Virus record (IMG/VR): IMGVR_UViG_3300031687_000022
Location: 1-50,021 of that record
Direction: 5' to 3' (one strand)
DNA from: a virus
DNA: 50,021 nt
The notes below the pieces were generated by a model. The model ran no database searches. It was not told the origin of the DNA and saw only the letters and a list, made by a program, of their open reading frames with translations. Of this stretch, positions 7,374 to 45,066 are shown piece after piece (positions within the stretch are counted from its first letter, which is position 1; every line of letters begins with the position of its first letter). The position numbers and the translations under genes are program-made.

Positions 7374-7403
7374 TTGACTTTCAATGAATTTTGATTACCT
7401 TTG
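7374..7403 (+). promoter_or_regulatory. Bacteroidota-type promoter for the replication block
   Basis: TTG at 7374-7376, a 19-nt spacer, then TACCTTTG at 7396-7403. This fits the TTG / TAnnTTTG consensus of the primary sigma factor of Bacteroidota, and so implies transcription by host RNA polymerase. The start point would be about 7410, giving a 70-nt leader before the ssDNA-binding protein gene. Confidence 0.75.
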
Positions 7404-32915: not shown

Positions 32916-33152
32916 ATGGCAACAGTAACGTTTAGTAGTGTATCTAATGATGGTTGTACTCTATCGGTGGTTTTGGACGGAGTCCAAAGGTCACCAATAA
33001 TAGTATATGGGATAGGTTTTCCATTTACCTTTGACCCGACCCATTACGGACAAAGTCCGGATGATATAAATGGAACCTATACATTCGACTGTAATGGTTG
33101 TGAGTATATAAGAGTAATTGATTATCACCACAACGACCACGAAGGAGTGTAA
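32916..33152 (+). CDS. Truncated adhesin-domain paralog, 78 aa
   Basis: The protein begins MATVTFSSVSNDGCTLSVVL and is closely similar to the first 70 residues of the next gene product (MATLTFNRVSNDSCTLSVLL), including DDINGTYTFDCNGC. The two are tandem paralogs. The frame ends YHHNDHEGV, but one base to the right (frame of 33121-33186) the DNA encodes IITTTTTKECNDDVSIGNFN followed by N and stop, nearly the same as the C-terminal tail of the 1699-aa protein upstream. The gene therefore appears to have suffered a one-base change or to need a +1 shift to make its polythreonine tail. It may be a standalone small domain, a decaying copy, or a frameshift-expressed protein. It is a small beta-type domain with three cysteines. 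Confidence 0.6.
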   Translation: MATVTFSSVSNDGCTLSVVLDGVQRSPIIVYGIGFPFTFDPTHYGQSPDDINGTYTFDCNGCEYIRVIDYHHNDHEGV

Positions 33153-33203: not shown

Positions 33204-34364
33204 ATGGCAACATTAACTTTTAATAGAGTATCTAACGATAGTTGTACTCTATCGGTACTTTTGGACGGAGTCCAAAAGTCACCAATAATGGTGGGGGTGG
33301 TTACATTCCCATACACTTTTAATCCTGAAAATCATAATTTTGGTCCTGATGATATAAATGGTACCTATACGTTCGACTGTGATGGTTGTATTTATGAAAA
33401 AGTGGTTGATAGTTACGTACCGACAACAACAACAACAACGACTAAGGGGATTGTGGTAATAGCGACAACAACGACAAGGGCTCAGAATGAGGGACCTGTT
33501 ATAACATTAAATAGTGGTACTGATACATTGTCCTTTGGTTCTACGTGGTCCGATGCAGGGGCAACGGCAACAGACGATGAGGATGGTGACTTAACTAGTA
33601 ATATTGTTGTAACTAATAGTAATGTTAATGGTTCAAGTGCGGGTACATACACAATAACATATACCGTAACTGATAGTGAGGGTATGTCTGATTCTGTTGA
33701 TAGGACAGTTATAGTTGAATCTCAACTAATAACGACAACAACTACGAAAGCTCCAACAACGACAACTACCACAACTCAAGAGGTAACAACAACGACAACG
33801 ACCGAAATAATAAGACCATTAATATATTGTATGGTATTAACGGGTGGTAGACTTACTGAATATACTTATACTGATGGAAACGGATTTACTCAAACGGTGA
33901 CGTTCGAAGGTAAGGTTCAATCTAAGACGGTTTGTGCCGAAGCGGGTTCAGTAGTTGACGTTCATAATAATGGTTCGGCTCCAACATTGGGTGAGCCGTG
34001 TGTGTTATTGAATGGGGTATATTCATGTGTTGTTATGGCTACCACAACGACAACTTCTACGATTGAGGAACCATCTGTTGGGACGTGTTATAGAGTGACA
34101 GTTACTAACACGGACACGTATAGTGGTATGGAGATAAAAAGAACGTTACCAGAAATGAGTCCATCTGCGTATAGGCTCCGTGATGAGATAAATCTAAATA
34201 CGTCGGATTCGCATATATATGATATTTGTAGTGAGGAAACCATAACACAAATAAGGGGTAATGGTGACATAACATGGAGACCAATCAATAGTCAGGATGG
34301 AATCACGATACAGACCATGAAAAGTAGTTGTATGGTTGATGGAAACTGTATGGAAACATTCTAA
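33204..34364 (+). CDS. Adhesin/tail-fibre protein with Ig-like domain and polythreonine linkers
   Basis: A 386-aa modular protein. Residues 1-72 form a small Cys-containing domain shared with the gene upstream. Seven Thr at 74-80 act as a linker. An Ig-like DUF5011/HYR-type domain spans about 98-171 (ITLNSGTDTLSFGSTWSDAG; ATDDEDGDLTSNIVV; GTYTITYTVTDSEG). A dense Thr block (177-200) leads to two further Cys-containing beta segments, with another Thr run near 280. It ends SCMVDGNCMETF. Ig-like domains on phage virions are known to bind carbohydrates such as mucin glycans, so host or surface binding is inferred. The Thr runs look like mucin-type O-glycosylation targets, and glycosyltransferase genes begin right after the terminator behind this gene. 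No signal peptide is present, as expected for a virion protein. Confidence 0.65.
   Translation: MATLTFNRVSNDSCTLSVLLDGVQKSPIMVGVVTFPYTFNPENHNFGPDDINGTYTFDCDGCIYEKVVDSYVPTTTTTTTKGIVVIATTTTRAQNEGPVITLNSGTDTLSFGSTWSDAGATATDDEDGDLTSNIVVTNSNVNGSSAGTYTITYTVTDSEGMSDSVDRTVIVESQLITTTTTKAPTTTTTTTQEVTTTTTTEIIRPLIYCMVLTGGRLTEYTYTDGNGFTQTVTFEGKVQSKTVCAEAGSVVDVHNNGSAPTLGEPCVLLNGVYSCVVMATTTTTSTIEEPSVGTCYRVTVTNTDTYSGMEIKRTLPEMSPSAYRLRDEINLNTSDSHIYDICSEETITQIRGNGDITWRPINSQDGITIQTMKSSCMVDGNCMETF
33423..33443 (+). repeat. Polythreonine (ACN)7 run
   Basis: Seven Thr codons join the N-terminal domain to the Ig-like part of the adhesin gene. A second, shorter run lies about 25 bases downstream. Confidence 0.85.
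33732..33803 (+). repeat. Threonine-rich block (5+7+6 Thr)
   Basis: Three Thr runs separated by KAP and QEV make a 24-residue linker after the Ig-like domain. Codons are mixed ACA/ACG/ACT/ACC. Confidence 0.85.
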
Positions 34365-34390
34365 TCTTATATTGGAGTAAAATAAGATTA
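34362..34390 (+). other. Hairpin overlapping the adhesin stop codon
   Basis: TAATCTTAT (34362-34370) pairs with ATAAGATTA (34382-34390) around an 11-nt loop. No T-run follows, and a true terminator comes shortly after, so it may serve as a 3'-end protecting structure. Confidence 0.4.
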
Positions 34391-34402
34391 ATATTTACAT
34401 TG

Positions 34403-34443
34403 AAGAGTGTCTGGCTATATTTATAGTGAGACACTCTTTTTTT
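34403..34443 (+). terminator. Terminator with a promoter-like motif in its loop
   Basis: AAGAGTGTCT (34403-34412) pairs perfectly with AGACACTCTT (34429-34438), followed by seven T ending at 34443. The loop contains CTATATTTATAG, itself an inverted repeat (CTATA/TATAG) and a copy of the TATTTATA motif. The ATG of the glycosyltransferase operon begins at 34444. Confidence 0.85.
34418..34425 (+). promoter_or_regulatory. TATTTATA motif inside the terminator loop
   Basis: It stands 18 nt before ATG 34444. Transcripts beginning downstream of it would lack the 5' arm of the terminator and so escape termination, while read-through RNA from the adhesin gene would form the full hairpin. Confidence 0.45.
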
Positions 34444-35379
34444 ATGATAACAATTTGTTCACAACCCGATAATATTTACTTTCACTGGCAAAATCTAATA
34501 CAGTTTTATAACTTACGTAATATGGGTATATTGAAAGACCATCGAGCAATATTTTTAGTACAACCAAACCAAAGGCCAACAGACTTTATTCTAAGTTTTA
34601 AAGAATCATTTCCTCATAATGTTTTCATTTATGAGGATAATAGAGTCAAGAAGCATTATATACCTACGATTAAAATCCACGGAGTTGTTAAGTATTTAGA
34701 GGAATTTGGGGATGATACGGATTTAATGTTAATTGACTCCGACATTATATTCAGAGAGCCTATTAATTATGAGTTATTTGATAAGGATAATACCGTGTAT
34801 TGTAGTGATACTAAAGGGTATTTAGGGTACCAATACCTAAAAACTAAGGGTGACGACATAATTACTGATATGACTAACTTTTGTGGGATAACCCTCCAAA
34901 TGGTTATCGATAAGAATGACCAGTCAGGTGGTGCGCAACTATTTTATAAAGGAGTTAGCGGATTATTGGGGTATTTTAAGGAGATTGACGTTAAGGCTAC
35001 GGAGATGTATGACTTAATGAGGTCACATAAGACTTTCAATGATTATATTCCGACGATACAAGCGTGGACGTCTGAGATGTGGTGTGTGTTGTGGTTATTA
35101 TGGTCACGAAACGTGGAAACTGAGATTCATAAGGAACTTGATTTTGTATGGGCAACGGATAATCTTAGTCGATGGAATGATAGTAAAATACTACATATGG
35201 CTGGTGTTACTTCCTCACATAAGGACCTTTTCTATAAAGGGAAGTTTATTAATAAATCACCATTTAATGGGGTTTTTAACCACATTAGGGAGGACTCAAT
35301 CACATTACTTTACCTCGATGAGATGAAAGAAATGATTGAAGATACGGACTTTAAAAAACTTTCGGAATTAATTAAGTAA
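34444..35379 (+). CDS. Glycosyltransferase-like protein (GT-A, DSD motif)
   Basis: I chose ATG 34444 since the upstream GTG at 34426 lies in the terminator hairpin. The protein has 311 aa. LMLIDSDIIFREP (about 105-117) is a DxD motif at the end of a strand, as used by GT-A enzymes to bind a metal-sugar nucleotide. It is preceded by a Rossmann-like first half (ITICSQPDNIYFHWQNLIQF; HRAIFLVQPNQR). Downstream QSGGAQLFYKGVSG and MWCVLWLLWSR resemble acceptor-side segments of nucleotide-sugar transferases. The donor and acceptor are unknown. It is the first of a run of seven genes with similar character, all co-oriented behind the adhesin gene, and is predicted to be cytosolic. Family placement is by motif only. 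Confidence 0.6.
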   Translation: MITICSQPDNIYFHWQNLIQFYNLRNMGILKDHRAIFLVQPNQRPTDFILSFKESFPHNVFIYEDNRVKKHYIPTIKIHGVVKYLEEFGDDTDLMLIDSDIIFREPINYELFDKDNTVYCSDTKGYLGYQYLKTKGDDIITDMTNFCGITLQMVIDKNDQSGGAQLFYKGVSGLLGYFKEIDVKATEMYDLMRSHKTFNDYIPTIQAWTSEMWCVLWLLWSRNVETEIHKELDFVWATDNLSRWNDSKILHMAGVTSSHKDLFYKGKFINKSPFNGVFNHIREDSITLLYLDEMKEMIEDTDFKKLSELIK

Positions 35380-35427
35380 TCTTCACTTTATCGTTAAATA
35401 TACTATTTTTTAATATAATTGAGTAGT

Positions 35428-36459
35428 ATGCGAAGACGTAAAGAGAAAATGTACGACATATATGTAACCACAGGTGCAGGTAATACTGTTGGTGGTGGTT
35501 CCGATGTATGGGTAAATAATTGGTTAGAGACTATCCCTCAGGGGTTGGAGGTTAAGCCTATATTATTTATCGATAACATTAGGTTTAATGGGTTTGAAGA
35601 AGATTCCATACCGATAGAACACATATTTTATAATGAAAGACCTGATGAGGCCGAGAGGTTATTACAGGGATGTCGACGCATACATTTCCTACATAATCAC
35701 TACACTAAGAGACCCCACTTATGGAAATATAGAAATAAATTTCATAGCGTTGCGGTCCATGCGTATGCTGGTGAGATAGTTAATTCCTATAAGGAGTTAG
35801 GGTTTTCTAGAGATTCAGTTCCTTTTCTGTGGAATGTTGAGTGGCAGGACGATTTGATTCGACAATGTAGAAAAAAATATTGGATAGGGTCTCAACCAGG
35901 AATGGTAAATGAAGTATTTGAGGACTGTGAAACAATTCCAAACTACTATGAGTTTGTGTGGAATGAAGAATATTTTCATAATAACGTGGTAGGTTTTGCT
36001 GCGAGGGCAGAGACTCGAAAGGCGATTCATTTCTTAGAAAACGTACAATCCAATGCGTTTACCTCATCTAAGGGTGTTGAGTTATGGGAGAAAAACACAA
36101 AAACTAAATTTAATAAAACGAAGATAATTGAGTATATGCCTAAACTAACTGAAGAGTACTATCGGAGTGAGTTATTTGGTATATTTCACGGAGCGTATGT
36201 GAAGGAACCTTTTGGGTATTCGATATTTCAATCGGTGGATGCCGGGAAAATACCCATCATTGCTAAAGATTGGTGTCCTGAATTTAATTACCCGTTCCGA
36301 GCATCTACTAAGATTGAGTTTGAGAAAATGGTAAAACAAATAAAAAGTATGTCGAAAGAAAATAGGAAATCTATATTTAACTCGGCGAAACTTTTCCTTA
36401 ATAAGTTTAATAATAAGAAAGAGTGGATAAATAAAATGAAAATATATTATAATGAGTAG
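35428..36459 (+). CDS. GT-B-type glycosyltransferase (GT4-like)
   Basis: I chose ATG 35428; a TTG nine bases upstream and an in-frame ATG at 35449 are alternatives. About 343 aa. The N-terminal TTGAGNTVGGGSDVWVNNWL fits the glycine-rich loop of a GT-B Rossmann domain. The C-terminal KEPFGYSIFQSVDAGKIPII carries the E-x7-type acidic signature of GT4-like enzymes that contacts the nucleotide sugar, here as EPFGYSIFQSVDAG. It is therefore of a different fold from its DxD-bearing neighbours. The 5' region contains a degenerate copy of the sequence seen before 26883. It overlaps the next gene by 8 nt. The donor and acceptor are unknown. Confidence 0.6.
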   Translation: MRRRKEKMYDIYVTTGAGNTVGGGSDVWVNNWLETIPQGLEVKPILFIDNIRFNGFEEDSIPIEHIFYNERPDEAERLLQGCRRIHFLHNHYTKRPHLWKYRNKFHSVAVHAYAGEIVNSYKELGFSRDSVPFLWNVEWQDDLIRQCRKKYWIGSQPGMVNEVFEDCETIPNYYEFVWNEEYFHNNVVGFAARAETRKAIHFLENVQSNAFTSSKGVELWEKNTKTKFNKTKIIEYMPKLTEEYYRSELFGIFHGAYVKEPFGYSIFQSVDAGKIPIIAKDWCPEFNYPFRASTKIEFEKMVKQIKSMSKENRKSIFNSAKLFLNKFNNKKEWINKMKIYYNE

Positions 36460-37399
36460 AAAAATAGTGGTTTCGAGATTGTGGAAGAAAAAGGGGATAC
36501 AACAGTATTTCTCATTATTGCAATTATCGAAGGAGTTTTGGGATTTTGAGGTAGATGCGCATATCTTAATTGATGATGGGGAACACAAGGATGATTGGTC
36601 AGGTGAGATAGACCGACTAAGTACTCCCCATAGACCAAAATTCCCAATGAAGGTGACGTTCTATAGTATGTCAGAAATCGAAGGGTGGTATATCAGTAAC
36701 GGACTACTTAGAAAGGAAGAATGTGAGAAATTAAAGAGTTTTGTTCACATATATCATATTTTACTGTATTATTACTTATTGGTTGAGAAAGGAGTTAATT
36801 ACTTAGTTACTTACGATGACGATATATTCTTCAATAAGAAAGCGGCGAATAGTCTATCTGAGATTGATGGGTTAGTTGAGTCACAAACACCATTTGTCGT
36901 AAACGAAGATTTTTGTCCTATGTCAGATAAAGGGATGTTTTATAAACTATCACAACACTTCGGTAGGGATTTAACTTCTGATTATCATAATAATAATCCT
37001 AACGGTGTTGGAGCTAACGCTGGATTTATGGGGATTGATTTATATTCCATTTTCCATCCATTCATTAATAAAATGGATGTACTGTTATCGTTATTTGAAT
37101 TTAAAACTGAATCGACACCAGATGAGATTATGACGTTTTCAGATAGAAGGTTATATGATACGCAGGAACAAAGTTTCCTTAGTATTATGTCACATTGTTT
37201 TAGTACTAAACCTATTTTTAGGTTGGGTAATTCATTAGGGTACTTTTTTGATACACCAATACAGGAGGCGATTAATAAGTCAAAACTAATTCACTTTACG
37301 GGTGACAGGAAATATGACCCGATTTTCCCGAAAGTGGTTATAGATTTTTTAAAAAATAACGGACACAATAATATAACGACCGAATGGTTTTATTACTAA
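36452..37399 (+). CDS. Glycosyltransferase-like protein (DDD motif)
   Basis: A 315-aa protein with NYLVTYDDDIFFNKKA at about residues 115-130, a DxD-type motif (DDD), after an N-terminal alpha/beta half (KIVVSRLWKKKGIQQYFSLL). GVGANAGFMGIDLYSIF and TQEQSFLSIM resemble later segments of GT-A enzymes that hold the acceptor and the catalytic base. The start overlaps the previous gene. The substrate cannot be deduced. Sequence similarity to the other transferases of the cluster is low beyond the motif, so the genes are not simple recent duplicates but a set with distinct roles, as expected for stepwise assembly of an oligosaccharide. Confidence 0.55.
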   Translation: MSRKIVVSRLWKKKGIQQYFSLLQLSKEFWDFEVDAHILIDDGEHKDDWSGEIDRLSTPHRPKFPMKVTFYSMSEIEGWYISNGLLRKEECEKLKSFVHIYHILLYYYLLVEKGVNYLVTYDDDIFFNKKAANSLSEIDGLVESQTPFVVNEDFCPMSDKGMFYKLSQHFGRDLTSDYHNNNPNGVGANAGFMGIDLYSIFHPFINKMDVLLSLFEFKTESTPDEIMTFSDRRLYDTQEQSFLSIMSHCFSTKPIFRLGNSLGYFFDTPIQEAINKSKLIHFTGDRKYDPIFPKVVIDFLKNNGHNNITTEWFYY

Positions 37400-37409
37400 A
37401 TTAAATACG

Positions 37410-38570
37410 ATGCTTGAACCTATTTACGATAAAGACACCCTAGAAGAGGGAATTATAGAGGCCCTAAGACATATAGATGCCTTTGACGATATAGAAACTG
37501 CGAAGGCGGTTTTACGAAGTGCGTTATCACCTAATGAGAGTTGGGCGATTAACTTATTAAATTCGACAAAGTCGGATGGGATGAAATTCCATACTACGAA
37601 CGACTTCCATTTACCCTTTTATGAGAGAATGAAGAAACCAATCAATGAGAGAGTTGGGAATAGTCGATTATGTGTTGTCTATCAGGTGTGGGGTAACCAC
37701 AATTATTTAAAATTTCTTTATTTGTCGATACTGTCACAAATAGTATATACGGATATGTTGGATTATGATGTTAAAGTATTTTTAAGTGAGGGGTTTATTA
37801 ATGATGTGGGTTCATCACTTTTAGCCAGGTTATTACCTACCGGTTCGATAGTAAAAGTTAAGGATGGTTTAGCGTTGAAATATGGATTAACTACTCACCC
37901 ACATTTGCAGAATTACGACGTTGTAAGTGTCGTGGATACAGACGCATTCTGGTATAACCCAACGGGAAAGAAGACTAATATATACGGTAAGATGTTAGCT
38001 CACTACGATAGTGGTTATGACGGTATTATTATGGCTCATGATGGTGACACTGCGGAGAGTGTATTTTGGAGTAGGAGAGAAACACTTAACAGTAACATAC
38101 CTAAAGAGCATTATAAGTATTATTTTGAGAGAAATGCGAATACGAATATAGAAAAATTAGATGAATTCTTAGAAAATGAAAACTGGTACTTATCATGTTT
38201 ATTTGTTTATGGTAAGAAACATTTTAAAGAACCTGACTACGCCAAATTTGCGATAACCTGTCTGTACGATGAGTTTCTATGTGATGAGACGGTATGGATG
38301 ATGTGGGGTTTTGGTCACGATTATGAGGTTAATGGTATGGACGATACGGACTACCTTAATTGGGTTGGGGCGTCTGATTTTAAAGATTATTGGGAAAACA
38401 GAGACGATGAGGTCGATGAATTAAAATATATACATCCTGTTCAGGGTGACCATTGTTATGATATGGTTAACGTCGAACTATATGATGAAATCTGTGAAAA
38501 ATTTAGTGAATTCACTAAAAAAGACAGTAAAAAGAGTTTAATAAGTAAATTAATAGGTCTATTAGGTTAA
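37410..38570 (+). CDS. Glycosyltransferase-like protein (DTD motif)
   Basis: A 386-aa protein. A 75-residue helical N-terminal part (LEEGIIEALRHIDAFDDIET) precedes a GT-A-like domain: RLCVVYQVWGNHNYLKFLYL, then VVSVVDTDAFWYNP (about 168-181) with DTD as the metal-binding DxD. LSCLFVYGKKHF and DETVWMMWGFGHDYEVNG follow. The C-terminus KKSLISKLIGLLG is amphipathic and could attach the enzyme to a membrane or to a partner. Donor, acceptor and exact family are unknown. It belongs to the same transcription unit as its neighbours, with 10 nt before and 4 nt after. Confidence 0.5.
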   Translation: MLEPIYDKDTLEEGIIEALRHIDAFDDIETAKAVLRSALSPNESWAINLLNSTKSDGMKFHTTNDFHLPFYERMKKPINERVGNSRLCVVYQVWGNHNYLKFLYLSILSQIVYTDMLDYDVKVFLSEGFINDVGSSLLARLLPTGSIVKVKDGLALKYGLTTHPHLQNYDVVSVVDTDAFWYNPTGKKTNIYGKMLAHYDSGYDGIIMAHDGDTAESVFWSRRETLNSNIPKEHYKYYFERNANTNIEKLDEFLENENWYLSCLFVYGKKHFKEPDYAKFAITCLYDEFLCDETVWMMWGFGHDYEVNGMDDTDYLNWVGASDFKDYWENRDDEVDELKYIHPVQGDHCYDMVNVELYDEICEKFSEFTKKDSKKSLISKLIGLLG

Positions 38571-38574
38571 AAAT

Positions 38575-39498
38575 ATGAGAAGAGATAAATATAGTGTTCT
38601 TTATACTCTTCACGTTATGCCTAATGAGATTTATGAGTTAGGTCGTATAGTGGAAATTATAGAGAAGTCGACATTTAATAATCCCAACGTGGACGTCACC
38701 ATCTATGTTGACTTAAATCTTTCGGATGAGTATACCAATTGGGATGAGTCGATACTAAAAAGAGACTTCATTGAGTCGATACTTAATTCTCAGATAGATA
38801 AGTCTAGAAGGAATTTAAATATAATATCTAACGTGAAGGTTACGGGTCATTGGGGTGTGAATGCTACGAGAAGAAGTGTGATACGTGAGTTTAAGGATAC
38901 ATTTGATTATATCTCATTTATTGATTGTGATATTATGTTCTCTGATGATGCGATGGACTATGTCTATGAGACTTTAGAGAAGGTCGAAGGGGAGTTTTTA
39001 ATATTTTCGGGGATGTTACCAAAAATGTGGAACGCAAATTTCAGTGAGTTAGTGCATCCGACATATAAAGACCACGACAACAAAAACACGCATAGTAAAG
39101 TTGACCCACTAACCATTAATAGGTTTCATAAAAAACAGAAAAATAGAATTGGGTTTACTGATGAAGTGGTTATTGGGGGAGGATGGTTTAATGTATTCTC
39201 AACGACCATTTTTGATTATGTTGACATCCCGGATGAATTAGGGGTTTACGGTATTGATGACCATTGGATACAGGAGTGTTGTAAGTTCTTAAATAAGAAT
39301 GGTTGGGACATTAAACAATGTTATAATACGAAATTTATTGTATTTGAGAATCACGGAAGGAAGTTTGAGTTTGACCCTAAATACCTGGTTGATAATGATA
39401 AATTAACTAAGAAATTTATGTACGAGAAAAACGCTAAGAATATGGAGAGAGAGTTGTGGGGTAAATTCGTTAAGGATACACTAAAAAAATACTTCTAA
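38575..39498 (+). CDS. Glycosyltransferase-like protein (DCD motif)
   Basis: A 307-aa protein with FDYISFIDCDIMFSDDA (about 113-129) as the DxD segment. ATRRSVIREFKDTFDYIS just before it is like the R-N-x-G / A-R-N segment of GT2 enzymes. VVIGGGWFNVFSTTIF and YGIDDHWIQECCKFL follow and resemble the later acceptor and ED-type elements of GT2-like transferases. Charged helices close the protein (KNAKNMERELWGKFV). It is predicted to be cytosolic, with unknown substrate. Of the DxD proteins in the run, this one fits a GT2-like layout best. Confidence 0.55.
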   Translation: MRRDKYSVLYTLHVMPNEIYELGRIVEIIEKSTFNNPNVDVTIYVDLNLSDEYTNWDESILKRDFIESILNSQIDKSRRNLNIISNVKVTGHWGVNATRRSVIREFKDTFDYISFIDCDIMFSDDAMDYVYETLEKVEGEFLIFSGMLPKMWNANFSELVHPTYKDHDNKNTHSKVDPLTINRFHKKQKNRIGFTDEVVIGGGWFNVFSTTIFDYVDIPDELGVYGIDDHWIQECCKFLNKNGWDIKQCYNTKFIVFENHGRKFEFDPKYLVDNDKLTKKFMYEKNAKNMERELWGKFVKDTLKKYF

Positions 39499-39501
39499 AG
39501 T

Positions 39502-41001
39502 ATGAAATTATTTTTTACGTTCCATTCGAATGAGAATATTGAGAGGTTACACCATTTCTTTAATCACTATCGAAAGTTAGGGGTCACAAATTTCTATGCC
39601 GTTTACCATACATATGGTTCGATAGATGAATCGGTTTTGGAGTATGTGATGACCAACGCAATGGTTATTAAAATATGGGATGGAAAGTTTAACGAACACA
39701 CTAAAATACGACACATTAATGAGGGAAGGTTAAAGTTTTCTAAATATGGTGAGTGGAGTTTCACTGTGGATTGTGATGAATTCATTGATATAACTACTAA
39801 TCAGATTGAGGATATTATCACATCAAAAACTAATTACTGTCGATTTGGATTAATTGACAGATTTTCAGAACCACCATTAAAAGAGGTGGTGAGGGAGGTG
39901 GACATTAACGAAACATTTCCGCTATATTCGAATTTCACGCGAGAAGTATTAAAAGGGGAGACCTCTAAGATATCACTATCAACTAGAGAGGTGGTGATTG
40001 GGTTAGGTTACCATGACGTACTACAAACAGAAACACTCATTAGGTTGGTTAAACATCCGATAAATGTGTGGGTAAATCACTTTAAGTGGGTTGGTGGATT
40101 AATTGAGGAGATAGATGAAAGGATTATCAATAAGTTTGAAGTCGTTGGACCTGACGACCCATATTTGGGTGAGTGTAAGACCCTATTGGGTGCGGACTAT
40201 GGGGTTATAAAAATGATTGAAAAACCACTTTCGATGAAACTACTATTCATCGTGTGGTCACAACAGAACTTCAACTTAATGAGGTTATTTTTTGAACATT
40301 ACAGAGGGTTAGGGGTTACAGATTTTTATTGTATTTTCCACACTTATGGGATGGAAAATAGTGAAATATATGATTACGTTTCTGAGAACGCCACTATCGT
40401 ACATCATTGGGACGAACCGTATACTACAGAGTGGGAGTGTAGATTAAAAAACCAATATAAGAGAGAGATAACTGACGATGAAAACGAGTGGTTATGGGTT
40501 GTAGATGCGGATGAGTTCGTCGAGGTATCGACTGATTTTATACGGAACGCGATTAATAGTGAGTCGAATTATGTTGATGGGTGGCTAGTTGATAGATTTT
40601 CCCCGGACGGGTTAATAGTCCCGAGTGAGGAGTGTGTTTTTATGCAGTTTCCAATCAGAACGTTCTATACTCGATTTACATTAAATGGGTCGGCAAGTAA
40701 AATACCGTTAACTCGGTCGTATGTTATTTTAGGTGTTGGTCATCACGTGGTTTTGAATGAGTTGTATGATTTTGGGTTGGAAGATGAGAGAGTGCTGGTT
40801 TCAATAAACTCAGATGAAGATGAATGGGTTGAAGTGGCACATATAAAATGGCATAGTAATTTATTAGAGGAGATTTATTTGAAATTTACTAAAACGATGG
40901 ATTTATGTCGACACTCGGCGAAGGAATTAGGTACGTTTGTCTTAGATTATCTTTATAAGAAAGATGGGATAATGGATATGATTAAAGATGACATTATATG
41001 A
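39502..41001 (+). CDS. Tandem-duplicated glycosyltransferase (GT92-like, two domains)
   Basis: A 499-aa protein made of two homologous halves. Residues 1 to about 240 begin KLFFTFHSNENIERLHHFF and contain WSFTVDCDEFIDI. Residues 245 to 499 begin KLLFIVWSQQNFNLMRLFFE and contain WLWVVDADEFVEV. The D-x-D-E-F block after a hydrophobic strand, and the opening HYRKLGVTNFY / HYRGLGVTDFY, fit GT92 (DUF23)-type transferases. Both metal-binding motifs are intact, so each half may be active, perhaps adding two sugars in turn. H-F-K-W and H-I-K-W near the ends are conserved between the halves. It overlaps the next gene by 4 nt (ATGA). The assignment to GT92 is by motif only. Confidence 0.6.
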   Translation: MKLFFTFHSNENIERLHHFFNHYRKLGVTNFYAVYHTYGSIDESVLEYVMTNAMVIKIWDGKFNEHTKIRHINEGRLKFSKYGEWSFTVDCDEFIDITTNQIEDIITSKTNYCRFGLIDRFSEPPLKEVVREVDINETFPLYSNFTREVLKGETSKISLSTREVVIGLGYHDVLQTETLIRLVKHPINVWVNHFKWVGGLIEEIDERIINKFEVVGPDDPYLGECKTLLGADYGVIKMIEKPLSMKLLFIVWSQQNFNLMRLFFEHYRGLGVTDFYCIFHTYGMENSEIYDYVSENATIVHHWDEPYTTEWECRLKNQYKREITDDENEWLWVVDADEFVEVSTDFIRNAINSESNYVDGWLVDRFSPDGLIVPSEECVFMQFPIRTFYTRFTLNGSASKIPLTRSYVILGVGHHVVLNELYDFGLEDERVLVSINSDEDEWVEVAHIKWHSNLLEEIYLKFTKTMDLCRHSAKELGTFVLDYLYKKDGIMDMIKDDII

Positions 41002-42215
41002 TAGGGGTACATTCGAATTTTGAGAGTAAATCGGTAAAAGATTTGTCCGTGGTTGAATTATATTTGTGGGTATACTCGATATTAACATGGAAGGAAAGTG
41101 GTAATAACATTAGGATTTATTGTGATGAGACTACCAAGGAAACTATGGATTATTATGGGATTACATCGTTATATGATGACGTTATGGTTAGGGACTATTC
41201 AAATAGGTTAATGGTTGTTCGAGAGTGTGACGGTCCCGTCTGTATTTTTAAAAGAAATGTATTTTTTACGGGGTTTAAATTTACTAAAGAACATAGGGAT
41301 ATTATAAGTGGGTTCCATGGGGATGACTCTTTAATTGTATTCAACAGTTATGACCTTAAAGTTGCGTTTATAGGTGATTTGGGGAAGGTTACGAATGAAA
41401 ATAACTTAATAAAAAGGTTCGAAGAGGGTAATTGTGGGGTAATTATTGAGGGTGAAATCCCACGATTTTTATTTGATGGTCATGATGAGATATCTATTTT
41501 TAACCGTAAATTGGGGGATGATGGACTATCTAAAATGTTCTTCCTTACTATGATGAGGGAAAAGTTGGTGGAAATTGGTTATCCTAAGTTCGGTAAAGTA
41601 ATGAACCTTACTATTGGTAAGAATAGAACGACTGGGAACAGTTTAATACGTGAGGGGTATAAACTATATAATATGGACCCATTGAATTTAGTGACGAATG
41701 AGTTATTTGATAAGTGGATGATTGAAAATCACGACTTAATCTATGATGATAGGTTCGAATTGGTTTTTTGGGGTTCGATTGGAGGTGCGGATATTGACGT
41801 TATAATAAGTAAGAGAGGTAATATGACATTAAAAGAGTTAGAGTCTTACATACTATCCCTGACATATTCAGGACATAAAATAGGGGTATCAATAGAGGTA
41901 CTTTACGTGTCGGATATTGAATACTTTAAGGAGTTTAGGAATAGTAACCCACATAAGGTGTTAGATGACGTTTTAATTGGTTTTTACTCGGTAAGTGAGT
42001 ATGAGTCGGTAGGTCAACTCAGGAGTTATGGGAATCTTAAGTTTAATTATGGACCATTTAACGATGCGTTTTATATGGCATCATCAAAGGGGAGTGACAT
42101 TAGAATGGTAAGGTCGATTCGTGAGTTATCGAATACTGATGGGTACGTAGCATATTCATCAGAAATATATAATACAATCTACGAAAGGTTTGGAATTTGG
42201 ACATCACTGACGTAA
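40998..42215 (+). CDS. Unknown protein of the glycosyltransferase cluster, 405 aa
   Basis: The N-terminal half looks alpha/beta: ELYLWVYSILTWKESGNNIR, then IYCDETTKETMDYYGITSLY. This resembles the start of Bacteroidota glycosyltransferase-like proteins in which a strand and a Y-x-D segment precede the active site. No clear DxD after a hydrophobic strand is seen, although FDGHDEISIFNRK might serve. The C-terminal half (FELVFWGSIGGADIDVIISK, then YILSLTYSGHKIGVSIEVLY) is a second alpha/beta unit, perhaps another transferase-like domain. It is translationally coupled to the two-domain enzyme before it (4-nt overlap). A role in the same glycan pathway is likely by context, but the activity is not established. 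Confidence 0.4.
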   Translation: MIGVHSNFESKSVKDLSVVELYLWVYSILTWKESGNNIRIYCDETTKETMDYYGITSLYDDVMVRDYSNRLMVVRECDGPVCIFKRNVFFTGFKFTKEHRDIISGFHGDDSLIVFNSYDLKVAFIGDLGKVTNENNLIKRFEEGNCGVIIEGEIPRFLFDGHDEISIFNRKLGDDGLSKMFFLTMMREKLVEIGYPKFGKVMNLTIGKNRTTGNSLIREGYKLYNMDPLNLVTNELFDKWMIENHDLIYDDRFELVFWGSIGGADIDVIISKRGNMTLKELESYILSLTYSGHKIGVSIEVLYVSDIEYFKEFRNSNPHKVLDDVLIGFYSVSEYESVGQLRSYGNLKFNYGPFNDAFYMASSKGSDIRMVRSIRELSNTDGYVAYSSEIYNTIYERFGIWTSLT

Positions 42216-42231
42216 AAAAACATTAACTGAA

Positions 42232-42239
42232 TATTTATA
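42232..42239 (+). promoter_or_regulatory. TATTTATA motif before the 704-aa tail gene
   Basis: Located 13 nt before ATG 42253, context GAATATTTATAATAAAAG. The spacing is the same as at 5302 and 18292. Confidence 0.5.
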
Positions 42240-45035: not shown

Positions 45036-45066
45036 TTGACCAGTCCAAAATAAAGTTGTAAATTTG
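45036..45066 (+). promoter_or_regulatory. Bacteroidota-type promoter for the primase gene
   Basis: TTG at 45036-45038, a 20-nt spacer and TAAATTTG at 45059-45066. The ATG of the primase is at 45071, only 4 nt after the -7 element, so the RNA start would fall at or just beyond the A of the ATG. The message would be leaderless or would need a downstream start. Confidence 0.7.

Follow-up and report, generated by a model that had tools for sequence, protein, structure and literature searches.

A 41-nt element at positions 34403-34443 of the window, lying between an adhesin-like gene and a glycosyltransferase cluster, is probably an intrinsic terminator that carries a phage late promoter in its loop. 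The window is the whole stretch of DNA analysed, a virus record from IMG/VR that is 50,021 bases long. Its gene content is T4-like and includes SSB, a UvsX-like recombinase, a DnaB-like helicase, ribonucleotide reductase, gp25 and further baseplate proteins. By baseplate protein, the nearest isolate was Flavobacterium phage immuto; no direct DNA relatives were found among sequenced phages. The adhesin-like gene (33204-34364, plus strand), whose transcription the hairpin would end, encodes a bacterial surface Ig-like domain (Pfam PF16403). Upstream of it, a short ORF (32916-33149) showed 63% identity to its first 71 residues (33204-33416), a tandem duplication of the N-terminus. The gene behind the element (34444-35379, plus strand; phrog_4417) is the first of the cluster at 34444-42215, and its start codon was backed by nine homologues aligned at M1. 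A structure model (pLDDT 77.5) and a fold match identified the predicted product as a GT-A-fold glycosyltransferase. The family phrog_4417, listed as of unknown function, has members in Enterococcus and Lactobacillus phages as well, and in some of these phages it adjoins the major tail protein gene.

Positions 34401-34446 of the plus strand read TGAAGAGTGTCTGGCTATATTTATAGTGAGACACTCTTTTTTTATG. The 5' arm AAGAGTGTCT (34403-34412) and the 3' arm AGACACTCTT (34429-34438) form an inverted repeat that paired at 10 of 10 positions in the RNA fold, or 11 if G34402-U34439 is counted. Only G34413 and G34428 are unpaired between this outer stem and an inner AT stem, which together with its 4-nt loop occupies 34414-34427 and contains CTATATTTATAG (34415-34426). 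The inner stem has five pairs, running from G34414-U34427 and C34415-G34426 inward to U34418-A34423. The late-promoter-like motif ATATTTATA (34417-34425), a putative -10 element with the core TATTTATA (34418-34425), sits at the hairpin apex. The GC-containing stem of 10-11 bp stands directly before a run of seven T (34437-34443), as in an intrinsic terminator, and this run is the predicted termination point for upstream RNA. The ATG at 34444 lies outside the hairpin. The segment 34390-34460 folded at -23.3 kcal/mol (z -5.7), and none of 200 shuffles was as stable; an RNA starting at 34431 showed no structure (0 kcal/mol). The sequence-only reading had described a perfect 10-bp stem with a T-run and a loop motif just before the glycosyltransferase ATG, and this was exact in both sequence and fold. 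A generic terminator scan missed the hairpin because its loop limit was 8 nt, and an Rfam search returned no match. Two further features lie just upstream: an AU-rich hairpin (TAATCTTATATT/AAAATAAGATTA, 34362-34390) overlapping the adhesin-like gene's stop codon, and after it a one-off promoter match, AATATTTACA (34390-34399), whose RNA would keep most of the terminator.

The loop motif has the distribution of a promoter. Four exact plus-strand copies of ATATTTATA were found in the window, all of them ahead of a gene and no more than 30 nt from its start (genes 5324, 15941 (gp25), 34444 and 42253). Among about 40 listed relatives of gp25, nearly all carried TATTTATA immediately in front of the gene, in most cases behind a separate terminator, and a few had the variants TATTTATT, TATTTATC or TATTTATG. 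When 8-mers upstream of 432 ORFs in related loci were counted with no motif preset, the top two were ATATTTAT (44 versus 0.8 expected) and TATTTATA (37 versus 1.1 expected), with 10 and 7 antisense copies, respectively; this enrichment in part reflects one orthologous gene, gp25. The late block of immuto answered this concern by showing the same placement: TATTTAT stood ahead of 18 of its 41 starts, where 1.15 were expected, and of the 14 plus-strand copies of TATTTATA 13 were just upstream of genes. The other two blocks of immuto had four and five upstream copies. The motif thus stood in the sense orientation just upstream of late genes, unlike the host-type promoters TTG/TAnnTTTG, which precede early genes. 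Judged from its position, TATTTATA most plausibly serves this phage group as the core of its late promoters, and the suggestion that the loop motif is a promoter element gained comparative support.

Other promoter readings were also considered. A sigma-70 reading of the loop was rejected, with 32 consensus sites in the scan versus 30.1 in shuffles. A minus-strand late promoter, on which strand TATAAATA is read, was rejected as well: the four intergenic copies are co-oriented and stand before plus-strand genes. The T4 gp55 core TATAAATA was found on the plus strand inside genes, and the intergenic motif is TATTTATA. Bacteroidota-type promoters, a class distinct from TATTTATA, occur before the SSB gene (TTGAC...TACCTTTG, 7374-7403) and the primase gene (TTGACC...TAAATTTG, 45036-45066). 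In many gp25 relatives (L023-L045), TATTTATA ends just 3-4 nt before the ATG; their mRNAs would therefore be nearly leaderless or begin inside the gene.

Fused elements with a hairpin, the motif and a T-run recurred in other sequences. In the window record itself, TATTTATA-N0-25-T6 occurs once, at 34403-34443. A scan for ATATTTATAN6-22TTTTTTATG gave at least 80 loci. Among the matches listed, a GC-containing stem surrounded the motif in 13, of which about 9 were distinct; with a scrambled motif the number was 5, of which 2-3 were distinct. This 4-fold excess among the matches listed is modest, and AT-rich palindromes are present in control hairpins too. The stricter pattern CTATATTTATAGN2-16TTTTTTATG was found in 12 contigs, all of which were inspected, and 11 of them had hairpins reaching past the palindrome. 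One family in this set showed matched arm changes (GGTTTAC/GTAAACC, AGTTTAC/GTAAACT and GATTTAC/GTAAATC). A hairpin of the same design, but unrelated to the one in the window, precedes a nucleotidyltransferase-like gene on a contig (L020) that also holds a relative of the 34444 glycosyltransferase. In ten close relatives of this glycosyltransferase (61-68% identity), both hairpin and motif were absent ahead of the gene; the element is therefore probably a local gain. Looked for in related phages, the arrangement thus recurs with covarying arms elsewhere but is absent before the glycosyltransferase relatives. The isolate immuto had no convincing fused element. The control scan also returned a different palindrome, ATGGGGTTAATTATATTAACCCCAT, followed by a T-run and ATG, in L216, L243 and L279, which may represent a further kind of promoter within a terminator loop. 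A search of the openly available literature found no paper naming promoters inside phage terminator loops.

The clearest covariation came from the locus downstream of the baseplate hub gene (phrog_150), where all 15 closest relatives (L428-L442) had TATTTAT at the hairpin apex. In the 12 distinct versions of this locus, 95.8% of cells were paired, and two-sided changes occurred at 8 of 12 pairs. The covariation score was 0.431 versus 0.197 in shuffles (none of 500 matched it), and slid registers scored 0.160 or less. A T-run of at least five followed the hairpin in 11 of the 12 versions, L442 being the exception. Measured from the motif, the next gene starts 20-46 nt downstream, beyond the T-run; in L431 the mechanically longest ORF begins before that, with a GTG that lies within the hairpin. 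Microcystis phage Mel-JY01, an isolate, shows the same order, TGGTTTACATATTTATGTATGTAAGCCA followed by T7, AGGAG and ATG; in its record (PP395634.1) the hairpin spans 36224-36251 and the gene is annotated as starting at 36273. Because the start codon, with any SD-like site, lies beyond the T-run both in the hub-locus set and in this isolate, pairing in the hairpin cannot cover the ribosome site. These sequence comparisons favour termination over a ribosome-site mask as the explanation of the hub-locus hairpin.

Homing-endonuclease-like genes after the tail tube gene showed the same layout with covarying arms and form a second class. The 3' arm in this class resembles an SD sequence (AGGAGG, GCAGAGG); the T-runs are uneven (TTTTTT, TTCTTT, ACTTTT) and in some cases poor. 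In distant members the start codon is within the 3' arm; in L360-L422 the sequence around the endonuclease start, AAATTCCCATATATTTATATGTATGGGAATTTTT, places the promoter motif at the apex, the start codon in the 3' arm and a T5 run inside the coding region. A cross-family covariation of these cassettes (alignment A5) was not counted; the registers differ. A search for endonuclease homologues among isolates gave partial matches only. In these cassettes a block on translation may act alongside termination or in its place, and it seems that one anatomy, with a promoter at the hairpin apex, serves two blocking modes.

These cassettes bear on a different reading of the window element, namely a translational gate in the style of T4 e, soc and I-TevI. 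The readthrough hairpin before the AUG would then block ribosomes, RNA started in the loop would be translated, and termination would be weak or irrelevant. We consider this unlikely for the window. The base of the stem is just 5 nt from the AUG, and the endonuclease relatives, with their SD-like arms, variable T-runs, covarying arms and, in distant members, start codons inside the 3' arm, fit such a gate. They resemble T4 I-TevII, which shares the layout, with CCTCGTATAAATATGAATACGAGG before its ATG and the SD in the arm, and the mechanism is documented for T4 (PMC3014915, PMC2988022). Against it, the 3' arm in the window has no SD, so the SD/AUG pairing of T4 e/I-TevI-type hairpins was not found, and T7 follows; moreover, hub-locus and Mel-JY01 genes start beyond the T-run, yet the hairpin and T-run are kept. 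By its sequence, with an SD-free arm and T7, the window element is assigned to the terminator class. The distance from the motif end to the ATG is 18 nt in the window, compared with 16-21 nt in class A elements.

As a terminator with an internal promoter, the element would act as follows. Polymerase coming from the adhesin-like gene would make both arms, the hairpin would form, and the transcript would end in U7 before the AUG. The late machinery of the phage would direct polymerase to TATTTATA in the loop, with a start about 6 nt downstream, within the 3' arm; from the spacing of T4 late promoters we infer a start site at about 34429-34432. RNA begun there would lack the 5' arm, could not fold and would pass the U-run, so that the glycosyltransferase cluster would be expressed. 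Late timing and insulation of this cluster from upstream transcription would be the expected outcome. The comparative evidence supports this sequence of events, in which upstream RNA stops and new RNA starts in the loop, as the sequence-only reading had proposed. In a bolder and unlikely version, this 40-nt terminator-promoter would be a portable part of T4-like phages that couples termination to late initiation: the releasing polymerase would slide back a few bases and restart in the loop, resetting the transcript instead of only blocking it, and mobile genes would spread with the element.

It is very unlikely that the hairpin is an ordinary intrinsic terminator of the adhesin-like gene, with an AT-rich loop that resembles a promoter by chance and glycosyltransferases expressed by other means. 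Intrinsic terminators do occur between other window genes (8374, 15861), and the AT-rich palindromes of the control hairpins could point the same way. However, 40 Markov simulations of the window yielded about three such stems apiece, and in no case did the loop hold TATTTATA, against one in the real window, and TATTTAT is invariant at the apex although the arms change. In addition, the next exact ATATTTATA on the plus strand after 34425 is 7.8 kb downstream, at 42231-42239 before gene 42253, with no exact copy between. That the polymerase recognizes an extruded single-strand DNA hairpin itself, in the manner of the N4 virion polymerase, can practically be set aside: the motif does lie within a strong inverted repeat, but it is upstream of many genes that have no hairpin, the gene content is T4-like, and a T-run follows, as it would in a terminator.

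The proposed terminator with a late promoter in its loop suggests that in T4-like phages readthrough into late or newly acquired genes is solved by a single 40-nt part, which stops upstream RNA and starts its own, and that this part works through transcription, not by hiding a ribosome site. It offers a compact design for an insulated promoter, with the isolate Mel-JY01 as a testable carrier, and a searchable signature for late promoters of uncultured phages. Glycosyltransferase, baseplate and homing-endonuclease genes are linked by one regulatory layout.

Several known systems resemble parts of this arrangement. A moron-type insertion carries its own promoter and terminator (PMC1524935) and, like the window element, is a self-contained expression unit between genes; the promoter and terminator of a moron are flanking, whereas in the window the promoter and the upstream terminator are one 41-nt element. 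In vitro, a polymerase that has released its transcript at a terminator is able to restart at a promoter close by (PMC6978380), but that work concerned E. coli polymerase and separate elements. In T4, hairpins regulate the late genes e, soc, 49, I-TevI, I-TevII, I-TevIII and segB, and in Aeh1 mobE; the late promoter is in or at the hairpin, late transcripts alone lack the 5' arm, and long upstream transcripts are silenced (PMC3014915, PMC2988022). Homing endonucleases often use this T4-type hairpin (PMC3014915, PMC2988022). The motif at the apex of the window hairpin would likewise leave late RNA without the 5' arm. T4 gp55-dependent late promoters and the window motif are both 8-bp AT elements without a -35, near late genes and with short leaders. 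The motif of the T4 hairpins is TATAAATA, from which TATTTATA differs at two central bases, and no clear gp55 homologue was found with phrog_234 (weak hits, best E 0.006-0.008) or Pfam (no match). The T4 genome has no TATAAATA with T6 within 25 nt after it. The hairpins of T4 e, soc and the I-Tev genes hide the ribosome site and act on translation, whereas the window hairpin has T7 after it and an arm without an SD. The T4 late promoter in a hairpin is the closest known system, and the window element, which we judge to be a self-insulating late promoter, would be a variation on that principle that most likely acts through termination.
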